Shown: positions 14,337 through 35,144 of the stretch, in pieces | How positions within the stretch are numbered: position 1 is the first letter of the stretch | Layout of the letters: each line of letters opens with the position of its first letter | NCBI GenBank assembly: GCA_020052615.1 | Contig: JAGVOT010000039.1 | Location: forward strand, 1-35,345 | DNA length: 35,345 nt | From: Nitrospirota bacterium | GTDB taxonomy: Bacteria > Nitrospirota > UBA9217 | Direction of reading: 5' to 3' | Program-made: the position numbers and the translations under genes | Notes under the pieces: generated by a model | Seen by the model: the letters and a program-made list of their open reading frames with translations, nothing else | The model's database searches: none | What the model was told of the DNA's origin: nothing

Positions 14337-14891
14337 TTGGAAGAGAACCTCGAAATACTGTTCGACGCGCAGGCCATTGAGCAGAAGGTTGCCGAGCTTG
14401 CCGGCCGGATATCCCAGGACTACGCGGGGAAGGACCTTGTGCTGATCTGCATCCTGAAGGGTGCTGCGATCTTTGCGGCCGATCTCAGCCGCCATCTGAC
14501 CATCCCCGTAACGCTCGATTTCGTCCATCTGTCCAGCTACGGGAGCGCCATGGTCTCCTCCAGGACCGTAACCGTGAAAAAAGACATCGACATCGATATC
14601 CGCGGGAAGCAGGTGCTGCTCGTGGACGGGATCATCGACACGGGCAACACCGTCACGTTCCTTATTGAACGGTGCCGGGAGCGGGGCTCAGCCGGCATCA
14701 AGGTCGTTACGCTGCTGGACAAGCATTCACGCAGGACAGCTGCTGTACCTGTCGATTACCGGGGTTTCGAGATCCCCGACGTATTCGTAGTGGGCTACGG
14801 AATGGATTGCCGGGAGAAGTACCGGAACCTGCCGTACATCGCAGTATTGAAGAATGACTTTGACACTGATCGAGGCGGATCAATGCCCTGA
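14337..14891 (+). CDS. hpt: Hypoxanthine phosphoribosyltransferase
   Basis: A 184-residue purine salvage enzyme (hypoxanthine/guanine plus PRPP to IMP/GMP). The start is a TTG with AGAGAGG 6 bases upstream; the frame stays open further upstream but without family similarity. Type I phosphoribosyltransferase fold: EILFDAQAIEQKVAELAGRIS N-terminus, LVLICILKGAAIFAADL loop, 'HLSSYG' motif, the PRPP-binding VLLVDGIIDTGNT (usually VEDIIDTG), TLLDKHSRR, and VGYGMDCREKYRNLPYIAVL at the C-terminus, as in HPRTs. The E-to-D change in the PRPP motif is conservative. Monocistronic or divergently transcribed from pncA. Its TGA lies inside an inverted-repeat end. Confidence 0.93.
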   Translation: MEENLEILFDAQAIEQKVAELAGRISQDYAGKDLVLICILKGAAIFAADLSRHLTIPVTLDFVHLSSYGSAMVSSRTVTVKKDIDIDIRGKQVLLVDGIIDTGNTVTFLIERCRERGSAGIKVVTLLDKHSRRTAAVPVDYRGFEIPDVFVVGYGMDCREKYRNLPYIAVLKNDFDTDRGGSMP

Positions 14892-14961
14892 TAAGAGCGG
14901 ATAATTCAAAGTCCTGGTCTGCTTCTTCATAAATCAAATCCGCCGTTAACTGTGTCAAAGG
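14888..14961 (+). repeat. Inverted-repeat element, short relative of the nuo-spacer family
   Basis: CTGATAAGAGCGGAT (14888-14902) is an imperfect inverted repeat of ATCCGCCGTTAACTG (14938-14952), followed by TGTCAAAGG (14953-14961). The same ends occur in the nuo spacers at 28085-28323, 30091-30210 and 32128-32590. The left end covers the hpt stop codon. The following stretch 14962-15259 holds no convincing gene or motif. Confidence 0.6.
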
Positions 14962-28079: not shown

Positions 28080-28084
28080 TCTTC

Positions 28085-28323
28085 TTTGACACTGAGGACA
28101 CTGTAAAGAACAATAAGAGAACCTCTGACACTGATCAAGTCAGATCAAAAGCTCTGATAAGGGCGGATAAAGCATTATCTTATTGTTCTAATGATTAATC
28201 CGCTGTTATCAGGATGTTCATCCGCATTTATCTGTGTCGAAGGTGTTCTTATATTCTCAGATCAGTTACACTTTCTTTGACTCAGAGATTCTCTTCATAT
28301 TTTTCAGTGTCCTCAGTGTCAAA
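28085..28323 (+). repeat. Nested inverted-repeat element in the nuoB-nuoCD spacer
   Basis: The outer arms TTTGACACTGAGGACACTG (28085-28103) and its exact reverse complement (28305-28323) are a perfect 19-bp inverted repeat. Inside lie CTGATAAGGGCGGAT and ATCCGCTGTTATCAG (13 of 15 paired), the same ends as in the nuoCD-nuoE and nuoF-nuoG spacers. It begins 5 bp after nuoB stops and ends 15 bp before nuoCD. No ORF inside. Confidence 0.8.
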
Positions 28324-28338
28324 TAACATGTCATATTT

Positions 28339-30084: not shown

Positions 30085-30090
30085 AATAAC

Positions 30091-30210
30091 CTTTGACACG
30101 GATTTTCACAGATGAAAGGCCTGACAACGGCGGATTATTCCTTATACATAGAAGATTATGCTTTATCCGACTTTATCAGAGTTTTTAATCAGACTTGATC
30201 TGTGTCAAAG
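30091..30210 (+). repeat. Inverted-repeat element in the nuoCD-nuoE spacer
   Basis: Outer CTTTGACACGGAT (30091-30103) and ATCTGTGTCAAAG (30198-30210) pair at 12 of 13. Inner CTGACAACGGCGGAT (30121-30135) and ATCCGACTTTATCAG (30165-30179) pair at 11 of 15. It occupies nearly the whole spacer and ends 11 bp before the nuoE ATG. No ORF. Confidence 0.75.
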
Positions 30211-30221
30211 ATTTTGATCTT

Positions 30222-30686: not shown

Positions 30687-30691
30687 TTTTC

Positions 30692-30836
30692 GACAGGATA
30701 ACAGGATTGACTGGATAAAGACGGATGAAGACCAGATTCTCTTGACTTAGTTTTTAATCAAAGAATGTATCTTCTTCTCGTTCTCTGTGTCATTGTGGTT
30801 ACAAGATGTTATCTGGATTTATCCTGTTATCCTGTC
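30692..30836 (+). repeat. Inverted repeat in the nuoE-nuoF spacer
   Basis: GACAGGATAACAGGAT (30692-30707) has a perfect reverse complement at 30821-30836. The right arm continues AAAGG, then TTTTCTAA and the nuoF ATG, so the repeat end probably supplies the ribosome binding site. The arms match those in the nuoA-nuoB spacer. No gene inside. Confidence 0.75.
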
Positions 30837-30849
30837 AAAGGTTTTCTAA

Positions 30850-32127
30850 ATGGAACGTCCTTTAACTCAACATATCCGTCCCCACGCGGAACCTCTCTCC
30901 CTCGCGGAATACGAGAAGGCCGGGGGCTACCGGTCCCTGCGCAAGGCCTTTGCCCTGACGCCCCAGGACATCGTTGCGATGGTCACGGCCTCCAACCTTC
31001 GCGGCCGGGGCGGTGCAGGCTTTCCCACGGGAATGAAGTGGGGCCTCGTGCCGGCAGTCGGCAGTGTGCCGCAGCCCCGGTACTTCATCGTGAACGCCGA
31101 TGAGATGGAGCCCGGCGCCTTCAAGGACCGGCTGCTGCTCGAAGGCGATCCGAACCAGATCATCGAGGGCATCATCGTGAGCGCCTACGCGGTCCAGACC
31201 GAGAAGGCCTTCATCTTTCTGCGCCGGGAATACTCCCTTGCCGGGAAGCGGCTGAACAAGGCGATCGCCGGGGCGTACGAAAAGAACTATCTCGGGCCGA
31301 ATATCCTCGGTTCGGGATTCAACCTTGATATCCGCATCCATTCCAGTGCGGGCCGGTACATCTGCGGCGAGGAAACAGCGCTGATCAACGCCCTCGAGGG
31401 AAAGCGCGCCGTGCCCCGTGCCAAGCCTCCGTTCCCTCTGGCCTGCGGCCTCTGGGGCCGGCCCACGATCGTCAACAACGTTGAGACGGTCGCGAACATC
31501 CACCATATCGTCAACAACGGGCCGGAATGGTTTAAAGCGCTCGGCGTCGGCCGCGAAAGCGGAACAAAGATCTACGGCGTCTCGGGCAGGGTGAAGTCAC
31601 CCGGCGCCTGGGAGCTGCCCATGGGCACCACGATCGGGGAACTGATCGAGGACCACGGCGGCGGCATGCAGAATGGCTATGCGCTTCGCGGCATGGTCCC
31701 GGGAGGCGCTTCGACCGACTTTCTGCTGCCGAAACATCTGGCCACTCCCATGGATTTCGATTCAGTGGCAAAGGCCGGCAGCCGCATGGGCACCGGCACC
31801 GTGACCGTTCTCGACGACAGGACCTGTCCGGTCGGCTTCGTTCATAACATCGAGCTCTTCTTTGCACGGGAATCCTGCGGGTGGTGTACGCCCTGCCGCG
31901 AAGGCCTTCCATGGATCGTAAAGATCCTCCATGCCATCGAGAACGGCCGGGGCGAGCAGGAAGATCTCTCGATCCTGGAGCAGCAATGCAGGTTCCTGGG
32001 ACCGGGAAACACCTTCTGTGCCTTCGCTCCCGGCGCCGTTGAGCCGCTCCAGAGCGTGCTGAAGTACTTTCGCGAAGACTTTGAGAGGCATATACGGGAA
32101 AAGAAATGCCCGTGGAGAACATCTTAG
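30850..32127 (+). CDS. nuoF: NADH-quinone oxidoreductase subunit F
   Basis: A 425-residue subunit that binds NADH and FMN and carries the N3 4Fe-4S cluster. FMN/NADH loops: 'SNLRGRGGAGFPTGMKWGLVP', 'FIVNADEMEPGAFKDRLLLEGDPNQIIEG', 'SSAGRYICGEETALINALEGKRAVPRAKPPFP'. Cluster ligands in 'ESCGWCTPCREGLPW' plus a Cys in the C-terminal helix (FCAFAPG region). Start ATG with AAAGG upstream. Complete, normal length. Ends 25 bp before the GxxExxY gene. Confidence 0.97.
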   Translation: MERPLTQHIRPHAEPLSLAEYEKAGGYRSLRKAFALTPQDIVAMVTASNLRGRGGAGFPTGMKWGLVPAVGSVPQPRYFIVNADEMEPGAFKDRLLLEGDPNQIIEGIIVSAYAVQTEKAFIFLRREYSLAGKRLNKAIAGAYEKNYLGPNILGSGFNLDIRIHSSAGRYICGEETALINALEGKRAVPRAKPPFPLACGLWGRPTIVNNVETVANIHHIVNNGPEWFKALGVGRESGTKIYGVSGRVKSPGAWELPMGTTIGELIEDHGGGMQNGYALRGMVPGGASTDFLLPKHLATPMDFDSVAKAGSRMGTGTVTVLDDRTCPVGFVHNIELFFARESCGWCTPCREGLPWIVKILHAIENGRGEQEDLSILEQQCRFLGPGNTFCAFAPGAVEPLQSVLKYFREDFERHIREKKCPWRTS

Positions 32128-32590
32128 ACACGGAGAAGGCGGATTTGAAAGATGATAAGGTCGGATAACAAATTACTTCATTCTGAGATTACAGACAAGA
32201 TCATCTCCTGCGCATATGACGTGTATAACCAGCTGGGATTTGGTTTTTCAGAAAAGGTCTACGAAAATGCCATGATGATCAAAACTGCCCAAAGGAATCT
32301 AAAGGCCGTACAACAGGCGCCTATCAGTGTGTATTTTGAATCGAAATTGGTCGGTGAATACTTTGCTGATATTTTCATAGAGGACAAAGTGCTTGTCGAA
32401 TTGAAGGCTGTTTCTATCCTGTCGAAAGCGCATGAGGCACAACTTATGAATTATCTTAAAGCTACAGGCATTAAAGTAGGCCTTCTTATTAACTTTGGTG
32501 ACAAATTGAAAATAGTTCGGCGTGTTTTTTAAATAGTGCACTATCCGCCGTTATCAGGACTTTGACCCGTGAAAATCCGTGGCAAAGGTT
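32128..32590 (+). repeat. Inverted-repeat element carrying a GxxExxY gene, between nuoF and nuoG
   Basis: Inner ends TGATAAGGTCGGAT (32153-32166) and ATCCGCCGTTATCA (32543-32556) pair at 12 of 14. They are the same ends as in the shorter spacer elements. Outside them lie GACACGGA on the left and TTTGACCCGTG...CCGTGGCAAAGG on the right, related to the outer arms of the other copies. The GxxExxY gene starts inside the left arm. The right end AAAGG is the likely ribosome binding site of nuoG. Confidence 0.65.
32152..32532 (+). CDS. GxxExxY (PDDEXK-like) protein
   Basis: A 126-residue protein of the GxxExxY family. The name motif is GFSEKVY, with 'IISCAYDVYNQLGFG' before it. A PDDEXK-like core is visible: 'YFADIFIEDKVLVELKAVSILSKAHEAQLMNYLKATGIKVGLLINFG', where D (ADIF), E and K (VELKAV) match the nuclease triad. 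The family has no demonstrated activity that I know of; nuclease or nucleic acid binding is inferred from the fold. The ORF starts inside an inverted-repeat arm between two complex I genes, and its GC is far lower than nuoF/nuoG, so it is an insertion. It is in frame order with, but unrelated to, complex I. Confidence 0.88.
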   Translation: MIRSDNKLLHSEITDKIISCAYDVYNQLGFGFSEKVYENAMMIKTAQRNLKAVQQAPISVYFESKLVGEYFADIFIEDKVLVELKAVSILSKAHEAQLMNYLKATGIKVGLLINFGDKLKIVRRVF

Positions 32591-32594
32591 TTTT

Positions 32595-35144
32595 ATGATC
32601 ACGATCTACATCGACAACAAGCCCCACCAGGTCAAGTCCGGCCAGAACCTCCTCCAGGCCTGCCTCTCCCTGGGCTTCGACCTGCCTTACTTCTGCTGGC
32701 ACCCGGCGCTGCACGCCATCGGCGCGTGCCGGCAGTGCGCGGTGAAGCAGTTCAAGGACGATAAGGACATGCGGGGCAGGATCATCATGTCCTGCATGAC
32801 GCCGGTTGCCGAAGGTATGCGCATCTCCGTGGACGACGCCGAGGCAACGGCGTTCCGGAAGGGCGTGCTCGAGTGGCTCATGCTGAACCACCCCCACGAC
32901 TGTCCGGTGTGCGATGAAGGCGGCGAATGCCACCTCCAGGACATGACGGTCATGACCGGCCACACCGGGCGCCGGACGCGCTTTAAAAAGCGCACGCACC
33001 GGAACCAGCATCTCGGCCCGTTCATCAACCACGAAATGAACCGCTGCATCCAGTGCTACCGCTGCGTCCGGTACTACCGCGACTATGCCGGCGGCAGGGA
33101 CCTGAACGTGTTCTCCGCCCATGATCACGTCTACTTCGGAAGACATGAGGACGGCGCGCTCGAAAGCGAGTTCAGCGGCAACCTGGTCGAGATCTGCCCC
33201 ACCGGGGTGTTCACCGACAAGACGCTGAAGCAGCACTACGCCCGCAAGTGGGACCTGCAGACTGCCCCTTCGATCTGCGTTCACTGCGGCCTGGGCTGCA
33301 ACACCATTGCCGGAGAGCGGTACGGCACCCTCCGCCGCATCCTGAACCGCTACCATCATGAGGTGAACGGATATTTCCTGTGCGACCGGGGGCGGTTCGG
33401 CTACGAGTTCGTGAACAGCGGGAAACGGATCAGGACGCCCCTTGCCCTGTCACCCCTCTCCCTGTCGGGGAGTGGTCAGGGTGAGGGGGATCTCCAGCCC
33501 GTTGAAAAGGCATCCGCCCTCGGTCATATCGCCGAGGTCCTTTCGTCCAGCAAAGGCGTCATCGGCATAGGCTCTCCGCGGGCATCCCTTGAATCCAACT
33601 ATGCCCTCCGTTCCCTGGTGGGACCGGACAATTTCTATTCAGGCATGTCGGGGCCTGACCATCGTCTGTTGTCCCTGATTATCGATATCCGGCAGAAAGG
33701 CCCCGCCCGTTCGCCTTCCCTGCGCGATGTCCGCATGGCAGATGCGATCGTGGTCCTGGGGGAGGATCTCACCAATACGGCGCCGCTCCTCGCGCTCTCC
33801 CTTCGCCAGGCCGTGCGCGGGAAGGAGTTCGAGGCGGCTGAAAAGCTCAAGATCCCCCAGTGGCATGATGCCGGTGTACGGAACGCGGGACAGGGGGCGC
33901 GATATCCTTTGTACATCGCCTCGCCTGAGCGTACGCGGCTCGACGACATCGCCCTGAAGACGTGGCATGGCTTGCCCGATGATATCGCGCGGCTCGGTTT
34001 TGCCATCGCCCATGAACTGGACCCCTCCGCTCCGGATGCTGACGGACTTGATGAGGAAACCGCCTTGTTTGCCCGGGAGATCGCGTCTTCCCTGAAAGGC
34101 GCCAGGCAGCCGCTCGTCATCTCCGGAACGAGCCTGTTCAATGAGTCTATCATCCAGGCTGCCGCAAACATAGCAACCGCCCTCTGTGCAGGCGGCAGGG
34201 ACGCGGCGCTCTGTTATGCCGTCCCCGAATGCAACAGCATGGGCCTCGGCATCATGGGGGGCAGGAACCTTGATGAAGCGTTCACGGTCATGGACGATGA
34301 CCTTGTGGACACCGTCATCATTCTCGAGAACGATCTGTACCGCAGGGCCGACGGGGGAAAGGTACAGGCTTTCCTGGACAGGGCGCAGCACGTCATCGTC
34401 ATCGACCATATCATGACGCAGACGGCGTCGCGGGCCGGCATTGTCCTTCCCGCGGGCACCTTCGCCGAGTCGAGCGGTACGCTGGTCAATAATGAATCCC
34501 GTGCACAACGGTTCTACCCGGTGTTCGTCCCCCCGGGCGACATTCAGGCCGGCTGGAAGTGGATACATGCTATAATGAGCGCGGCAGGAAGGACGGAAGC
34601 TGATCGGATAAAGTCGTTGGACGGCGTGACGACAGCCATGTCCACTGCTTTGCCGTTGCTTGCTCCGGTGGGGGATATCGCGCCTCCTGCGGACTTCAGG
34701 GTCAAGGGATCGAAGGTGCCCCGCCAGCCTCACCGATACAGCGGCCGCACATCCATGCGCGCCGATGTCTCGGTCAGCGAGGAAAAGCCGCCGGAAGACG
34801 CCGATACTTCCCTCGCCTTCTCCATGGAAGGGTCTGAGGAGCAGCCGCCCGCATCGCTCATTTCACGATACTGGTCTCCCCGATGGAACTCCGTCCAGGC
34901 GCTGAACAAGTACCAGCAGGAGGTCGGCGGGGAGCTGCGGGGCAATGGACCGGGGAAACGTCTGATCGAACCAGAGCCGCACGGAAAGCCCGTCTACTTC
35001 ACGGTCGATCCATCAAGATCATCTCAAGAAATAGACGGTAGTACCGCCCCGATATATCACCTCTTCGGTTCCGAAGAATTGAGCGGTTATTCGCCCGCTA
35101 TCGAGGAACGGGCAAGTACCCGCAACCGTGACAAGCCGGAATAA
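32595..35144 (+). CDS. nuoG: NADH-quinone oxidoreductase subunit G
   Basis: An 849-residue subunit. The N-terminal 2Fe-2S domain (YFCWHPALHAIGACRQC...SCMTP) is followed by the His-Cys cluster motif 'HPHDCPVCDEGGEC' and a 4Fe-4S motif 'CIQCYRCVRYYRDYAGG'. 'SICVHCGLGCNT' plus a later Cys in 'GYFLCDRGRFG' provide the extra N7 cluster ligands, as in E. coli-type NuoG. The rest is a molybdopterin-oxidoreductase-like domain (GIMGGRNLDEAF, VIDHIMTQTASRAGIVLPAGTFAESSGTLVNNESRAQRFYP). The tail has 'SPRWNSVQALNKYQQEVGGELRG', as in the E. coli protein. Odd feature: residues about 286-301 (SPLSLSGSGQGEGDLQ) are encoded by a palindromic repeat read in frame. Confidence 0.96.
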   Translation: MITIYIDNKPHQVKSGQNLLQACLSLGFDLPYFCWHPALHAIGACRQCAVKQFKDDKDMRGRIIMSCMTPVAEGMRISVDDAEATAFRKGVLEWLMLNHPHDCPVCDEGGECHLQDMTVMTGHTGRRTRFKKRTHRNQHLGPFINHEMNRCIQCYRCVRYYRDYAGGRDLNVFSAHDHVYFGRHEDGALESEFSGNLVEICPTGVFTDKTLKQHYARKWDLQTAPSICVHCGLGCNTIAGERYGTLRRILNRYHHEVNGYFLCDRGRFGYEFVNSGKRIRTPLALSPLSLSGSGQGEGDLQPVEKASALGHIAEVLSSSKGVIGIGSPRASLESNYALRSLVGPDNFYSGMSGPDHRLLSLIIDIRQKGPARSPSLRDVRMADAIVVLGEDLTNTAPLLALSLRQAVRGKEFEAAEKLKIPQWHDAGVRNAGQGARYPLYIASPERTRLDDIALKTWHGLPDDIARLGFAIAHELDPSAPDADGLDEETALFAREIASSLKGARQPLVISGTSLFNESIIQAAANIATALCAGGRDAALCYAVPECNSMGLGIMGGRNLDEAFTVMDDDLVDTVIILENDLYRRADGGKVQAFLDRAQHVIVIDHIMTQTASRAGIVLPAGTFAESSGTLVNNESRAQRFYPVFVPPGDIQAGWKWIHAIMSAAGRTEADRIKSLDGVTTAMSTALPLLAPVGDIAPPADFRVKGSKVPRQPHRYSGRTSMRADVSVSEEKPPEDADTSLAFSMEGSEEQPPASLISRYWSPRWNSVQALNKYQQEVGGELRGNGPGKRLIEPEPHGKPVYFTVDPSRSSQEIDGSTAPIYHLFGSEELSGYSPAIEERASTRNRDKPE
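33453..33488. repeat. Palindromic repeat inside nuoG, read in frame
   Basis: CCCCTCTCCCTG (33453-33464) and CAGGGTGAGGGG (33477-33488) are an 11-of-12 inverted repeat around GTCGGGGAGTGG. The encoded SPLSLSGSGQGEG phrase is not typical of NuoG and resembles the translation of a common intergenic palindrome. It falls in a surface-type linker after the N7 region, without breaking the frame. Confidence 0.6.

Follow-up and report, generated by a model that had tools for sequence, protein, structure and literature searches.

The GxxExxY gene between nuoF and nuoG in a 35,345-nucleotide stretch of a Nitrospirota draft genome of 3.99 Mb (the window, hereafter) is enclosed by an inverted frame of short repeated units at about 32123 to 32588, and the same layout recurs around GxxExxY genes from about 30 phyla. 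The layout exists, is widespread and, to the extent of the searched literature, is undescribed: a literature search that covered articles without their supplements found no description of such a frame, and of two papers that use the name GxxExxY, one does so once and has nothing on the frame. We give a probability of roughly one half to the reading that the element is a REP-RAYT-like pairing, in which a dispersed repeat and a PD-(D/E)XK nuclease that acts as its keeper are combined in a compact one-gene element. The frame, its generality, its match to protein subtype, the purifying selection on the gene, its presence and absence, and the reuse of sites can be read from sequence comparison, and the frames may be maintained or mobilised by cutting.

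The nuoF-nuoG element and its protein

The arms, the enclosed gene and the neighboring host genes are arranged as follows.

30850-32127, plus strand: nuoF, upstream host gene
32123-32134, plus strand: outer left arm CTTAGACACGGA, with the nuoF stop codon TAG (32125-32127) inside it
32152-32532, plus strand: GxxExxY gene, 126 aa, PD-(D/E)XK fold, with E34, D73, E83-x-K85 and Q97xxxY101
32153-32167, plus strand: inner left arm TGATAAGGTCGGATA, overlapping the GxxExxY start codon
32542-32556, minus strand: inner right arm TATCCGCCGTTATCA, starting about 10 bp past the GxxExxY stop
32576-32588, minus strand: outer right arm TCCGTGGCAAAGG, ending 6 bp short of the nuoG start (32595)
32595-35144, plus strand: nuoG, downstream host gene

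A preliminary description made from the letters of the window had placed the ATG in the left arm and the right arm 10 bp after the stop, and both placements are borne out by the inner arms at 32153-32167 and 32542-32556; it had missed the outer arms, CTTAGACACGGA and TCCGTGGCAAAGG, and the frame is longer than was then supposed. The inner arms are complementary at 13 of 15 bases. By simple local alignment the window frame scores 20, which is not significant alone (p=0.14), and over its entire length it lies above all 2000 shuffles (p=0.0005); the orthologous frame at the nuoF-nuoG junction of genome G004 is perfect. The G+C content of the element is 40%, compared to 62% for the operon.

The window protein clearly belongs to the GxxExxY family, with profile scores of 132.6 bits against TIGR04256 (cut-off 35) and 133.7 bits against PF13366 (PDDEXK_3; cut-off 22). 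These two were its only profile matches, with none to a HUH/Y1 (IS200/IS605 type) tyrosine transposase, and a search of viral contigs with the protein gave no match. Across 111 proteins, E34 and D73 are invariant (111/111), K85 is present in 110, and E83 and Q97 in 109 each. The AlphaFold model (pLDDT 94) finds its best PDB matches in SSO0001 (Cas4) and lambda exonuclease, with a weaker match to Hjc, and it is the near-invariant E34, D73, E83xK85 and Q97 together with this fold that uphold the PDDEXK-like residues named in the preliminary description. Estimates of dN/dS are 0.03-0.05 in three orthologue or near-orthologue pairs, compared to 0.13 for nuoF, with a fourth pair (G012/G013) too close for information; by these ratios the gene is under purifying selection. 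Its distribution is patchy, with GxxExxY genes in 18 of 41 relatives.

Generality of the frame and the grammar of its arms

The preliminary description had supposed that GxxExxY genes at large share inverted ends, and in many genomes they do: significant inverted flanks (p<0.01) were found at 64 of 79 GxxExxY loci from about 30 phyla and at 30 of 35 GxxExxY loci of relatives, compared to 7 of 99 control ORFs from the same loci. The 79-locus set was picked by the pattern GPGLLES and is skewed to one part of the family, a biased sample that results from using a narrower protein alignment as query, the broad one being too diverse. The flanks were compared with control ORFs, distant windows and dinucleotide shuffles; swapping flanks between loci was too stringent a control, since different phyla have arms in common, and was dropped.

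The typical arm, TTCACCACAGAGACACAGAGACACAGAG, consists of tandem units of the form C[AG]CN[AG]AG (CRCNRAG) separated by spacers of 1-3 bases, with unit plus spacer spanning 8-11 bp. Each genome harbors many arm types, paired to GxxExxY subtypes, and thus the expected sharing of inverted ends with ORF-less copies holds in many genomes but not as a single set of ends. The frames fit closely between host genes, with about 9-13 bases from the upstream stop to the left arm and about 22 bases from the end of the right arm to the next gene. Where both neighbors share a strand, the GxxExxY gene lies on that strand in 45 cases and on the opposite one in 3 (ORF calls being heuristic), an orientation from which the gene is probably transcribed from the host operon. 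At three loci (L010, L030 and L053) the GxxExxY reading frames begin within the arm, and N-termini such as PPQRHRDTE are translated arm.

Mismatches between the two arms of a frame are unevenly spread over the unit, reaching 23.5% at position 4 and 18.8% in the spacers, 8% at the A/G position 2, and 1-4% at C1, C3, R5, A6 and G7. That mismatches avoid the fixed bases argues that the sequence of the unit is kept, and not pairing alone. Furthermore, changes between arms that would be G.U-compatible on the transcribed strand show no excess (155 vs 160, p=0.82), which favors DNA over an RNA hairpin, and an Rfam search of the window gave no match. Arm type is correlated with protein subtype among relatives of one phylum (Mantel r=0.48, p=2e-4) and across all loci (r=0.36), with a weak correlation within the 79-locus set alone (0.15, p=0.01); part of this correlation may be due to joint inheritance. 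By their pattern of conservation the arms resemble a sequence-specific DNA site for the encoded protein, and recognition of frames by their own encoded protein is supported, indirectly.

Gene-less frames, loss and movement

Four ORF-less frames, one of them nested within a further frame, lie upstream of the GxxExxY gene in the window.

14858-14961, unstranded: ORF-less copy with ends TTTGACAC / GTGTCAAAG
28084-28325, unstranded: second, outer frame of CACTGAGGA units (TTTGACACTGAGGACACTG / CAGTGTCCTCAGTGTCAAA)
28123-28243, unstranded: ORF-less copy in the nuoB-nuoCD gap, nested in the frame 28084-28325
30090-30211, unstranded: ORF-less copy in the nuoCD-nuoE gap, with outer and inner ends as in the GxxExxY frame 32123-32588
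30687-30841, unstranded: ORF-less frame of another unit type (GACAGGATAACAGGAT; GACAGGAT units), filling the nuoE-nuoF gap

The short copies first noticed at 14888, 28085 and 30091 are confirmed as those at 14858-14961, 28123-28243 (inside 28084-28325) and 30090-30211, and with the frame of the window gene they have in common the outer (CTTTGACAC) and inner (TGATAA..CGGAT) ends. Matches to CTTTGACACNGAT number 14, compared to 2.3 expected, and those to TGATAANGNCGGAT 13, compared to 3.0, with no shuffle as high in either case; about a dozen further copies of the window arm type are found elsewhere in the genome. The unit of the frame at 30687-30841 also frames a GxxExxY gene at the nuoH-nuoI junction (L008). 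There are eight GxxExxY places in the window genome, two of them broken, and all eight lie in inverted frames built from mostly different units: GACAGGAT, CACAGAGA (twice), CGCGAAGG, CACGAATG, CACAGATGAA, CGCAAAGG and, in the window, GACACGGAT. The nuo operons of G000, G001, G002, G004, G005 and G008 have an inverted spacer in most gene junctions, the unit type at a given junction varying by species, and a minimal inverted spacer, TTTTGACAGGTAATCCTGTCTAAAAGG, occupies nuoE-nuoF in G005.

The nuoF-nuoG copies of G000, G001, G004 and G009 form one old clade in the family, which implies that movement of the element is rare. The gene at the same junction in G008 has lost its middle, aa 1-52 being joined to aa 91-126 with the arms intact, and this internal deletion is the proposed miniature in the making; in G028, a remnant with three stops persists between arms. 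One near-precise empty site was found, where a 450-bp element in G012 corresponds to 17 bp in G009 between flanks that are 96% identical. Its borders coincide with the arm ends, as the preliminary description had anticipated of empty sites, and yet it reads as a loss by parsimony, because the element is also present in outgroups, with G000, G008 and G011 among its carriers. Elements nevertheless change place over evolutionary time, if rarely, since L011 (G000) and L051 (G008) occupy one site and each groups with an element elsewhere at 100% bootstrap, the closest relatives of both being at another site in another genome.

Target-site duplications were not seen by eye at the frames, nor consistently at the dispersed copies of G008, with the one empty site reading as loss, and no fresh or dated insertion by GxxExxY was found. 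These dispersed copies of G008 are 15 ORF-less, near-identical (~95%) sequences of 228 bp (L273-L288) that have a CGCAGAG frame inside and ends, ACTAACAAATC...CCGGGTTAGG, that differ from those of the gene-bearing frame. The proposal that the gene-bearing element is parent to the miniatures thus stands as a relationship, on shared ends and degraded intermediates, but not as transposition by GxxExxY.

Arms of the CCACRRAG type number 19-190 per genome in all 14 genomes of family f1, compared to 0-3 for the reversed pattern, and all 14 carry GxxExxY and S23 genes. Outside the family, 15 arms occur in G033 in the absence of both genes, S23 occurs without GxxExxY in G027 and G036, and the GxxExxY gene of G034 goes with another unit. 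The suggestion that genomes with many short copies always carry a GxxExxY gene is therefore correct usually but not always, G033, G027 and G036 being the exceptions. Two gene-less frames of G033 (L302 and L303) hold other inserted repeats, like tolerated landing sites.

Candidate explanations and proposed partner genes of other repeats

In the REP-RAYT-like reading, a GxxExxY nuclease gene has on either side an array of short recognition units, the two arrays being inverted relative to each other, and the encoded PD-(D/E)XK protein, with its E/D/ExK/Q active site, would bind as DNA the units of its own frame and, in trans, those of gene-less copies. Cutting at bound units would engage repair or recombination that keeps, repairs and occasionally copies frames into other intergenic gaps. 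Deletion of the gene would generate gene-less frames, which could persist or spread by means of nuclease supplied in trans.

The closest layout is that of RAYT genes, which are flanked by two inverted REPs, co-evolve with them and are accompanied by many gene-less REPs (PMC2817692, PMC3116915). As in REP/REPIN-RAYT systems, one nuclease gene lies between inverted copies of a genome-abundant repeat, many repeats are gene-less, the repeat class is matched to the protein lineage, and inheritance is mostly vertical. The GxxExxY frame matches REP-RAYT in layout and is not a member, because nuclease and repeat form differ: GxxExxY is a PD-(D/E)XK protein and RAYT (REP-associated tyrosine transposase) a HUH tyrosine nuclease, and the arms consist of tandem CRCNRAG-type units where REPs are GT(A/G)G-headed palindromes. 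Furthermore, GxxExxY has several lineages per genome under strong purifying selection, unlike the fast-evolving RAYTs.

An RNA-level element is unlikely, if the strongest of the alternatives; here the arms would base-pair within the operon transcript, RNase III would cut out the resulting long hairpin, the protein would bind its own RNA, and the DNA arms would matter through pairing only. The precedent is the 23S rRNA intervening sequence of Coxiella, an S23 gene in an inverted stem, with 28-bp inverted ends and heptamer repeats (GACAGAT), that is excised by RNase III (PMC4990558). The intervening sequences of Coxiella and Leptospira likewise place a short ORF, commonly degraded, in an inverted stem, and the heptamers of Coxiella have the make-up of the S23 frames of relatives, which are similar frames with 7-bp units. 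The elements are also co-directional with operons (45 vs 3) and take up the space between one stop codon and the start that follows. However, the frames occupy operon spacers, such as nuoF-nuoG in the window, and not rRNA, GxxExxY is unrelated to S23, and the evidence is for DNA rather than RNA constraint: the transcribed strand shows no G.U bias between arms, the fixed unit bases are kept as spacer mismatches are tolerated, the protein retains the active site of a metal nuclease, of a kind typical for enzymes that act on DNA, and the window has no Rfam match.

It is less probable still that the frames are host elements for mRNA stability or regulation, with the enclosed genes as passengers. 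Gene-less frames do occupy most nuo junctions in this family, and other repeats lie inside L302 and L303. In cyanobacteria, repeats known as STRR are dispersed between genes and built of tandem units of 7-8 bp. Repeats of similar make-up, some of them present on both strands, were described in Geobacter (PMC2700814, PMC2996986), where multicopy heptamer/octamer repeats were read as putative regulatory elements (PMC2700814) and, unlike here, the main-text passages name no partner gene. Against host hairpins stand the unit grammar peculiar to each gene family, the tracking of protein subtype by the arms, and the rarity of such flanks among control ORFs (7%). A transposon with its MITEs is a comparably doubtful account; GxxExxY would here be the transposase and the arms its terminal inverted repeats, and the short copies would be derivatives with internal deletions, mobilized in trans. 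ORF-less copies that share ends with a gene-bearing copy are what MITEs of bacterial insertion sequences look like, and the deletion intermediates in G008 and G028, the 15 near-identical 228-bp ORF-less copies of G008 with CGCAGAG arms inside, and similar genes at unrelated sites all fit. The system nonetheless differs from MITEs in that it has no DDE transposase, no target duplication was found and a single genome holds many families of units; the 228-bp family has outer ends (ACTAACAAATC...CCGGGTTAGG) unlike those of the gene-bearing frame, genes keep to one site through a family under strong purifying selection, and their orientation is far from random. That GxxExxY is a host repair or defense nuclease, with the arms a mere operator or terminator, is very improbable: low dN/dS and residues and fold like those of Cas4, lambda exonuclease and Hjc would suit such an enzyme, but not its patchy presence in 18 of 41 relatives, its frequent broken copies, the dozens of gene-less arms per genome, or the symmetry of arms on both sides of the gene.

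Other gene families lie in like frames. Genes for S23/four-helix proteins (TIGR02436) have inverted frames at 23 of 26 loci, mainly of 7-bp units, as seen among L217-L245 and L058-L063, and their arm type follows protein similarity (Mantel r=0.58). DUF559 nuclease genes of relatives lie between inverted C-rich/G-rich palindromes of the CCCTCCCCTTGnnnGGGGAGGG type at 10 of 11 loci (L310-L321), a small sample, and several stand-alone GIY-YIG genes, also a small sample, lie between GTCATTCCCGCG- or GTCATTCTGAGCG-type repeats. A CCCTCCCCTTGnnnGGGGAGGG-type repeat without a gene is present at nuoH-nuoI of G001 (L094, 6930-7150), and at L322, L331 and L332 a stand-alone GIY-YIG gene lies between inverted GTCATTCCCGCGAAAGCGGGAATCCAG or GTCATTCTGAGCGCAGCGAAGAATC, repeats that resemble widely seen dispersed repeats. 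Three near-identical S23 copies in G026 (C1; L291, L292 and L296) have the same stop codon, at least one of them beside CRISPR-like repeats, and an almost unchanged gene with arm units that differ at many positions; these copies, which at first sight resemble recent transposition, were not counted as such, as the shared sequence extends past the arms into CRISPR-like repeats.

Mirrored frames and the match to subtype suggest that, for many unexplained dispersed repeats of bacteria, there is a partner gene by which they are kept or spread. In a broader form, held tentatively and at somewhat less than even odds, bacterial dispersed repeats would commonly have a partner gene that lies between inverted copies and acts on the repeat, as in GxxExxY with CRCNRAG, S23 with heptamers (the 23S rRNA intervening sequence being one case), DUF559 with CCCTCCCCTTGnnnGGGGAGGG, and GIY-YIG with GTCATTCCCGCGAAAGCGGGAATCC or similar repeats. 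REP-RAYT-like systems would then exist in several independent forms whose nucleases are unrelated, and would account for much of the palindromic repeat content of bacterial genomes that lacks an explanation. We know of no established role for the widespread GxxExxY and S23 proteins, nor for heptamer/octamer and CACAGAG-type repeats. The matching of protein to repeat gives both a testable role, in which each protein would bind, and the nucleases cut, the repeat type of its own frame. If this is true, REP-RAYT would be one of several partnerships whose nucleases are unrelated to one another, and a wider group would include the 23S rRNA intervening sequences as a special case.
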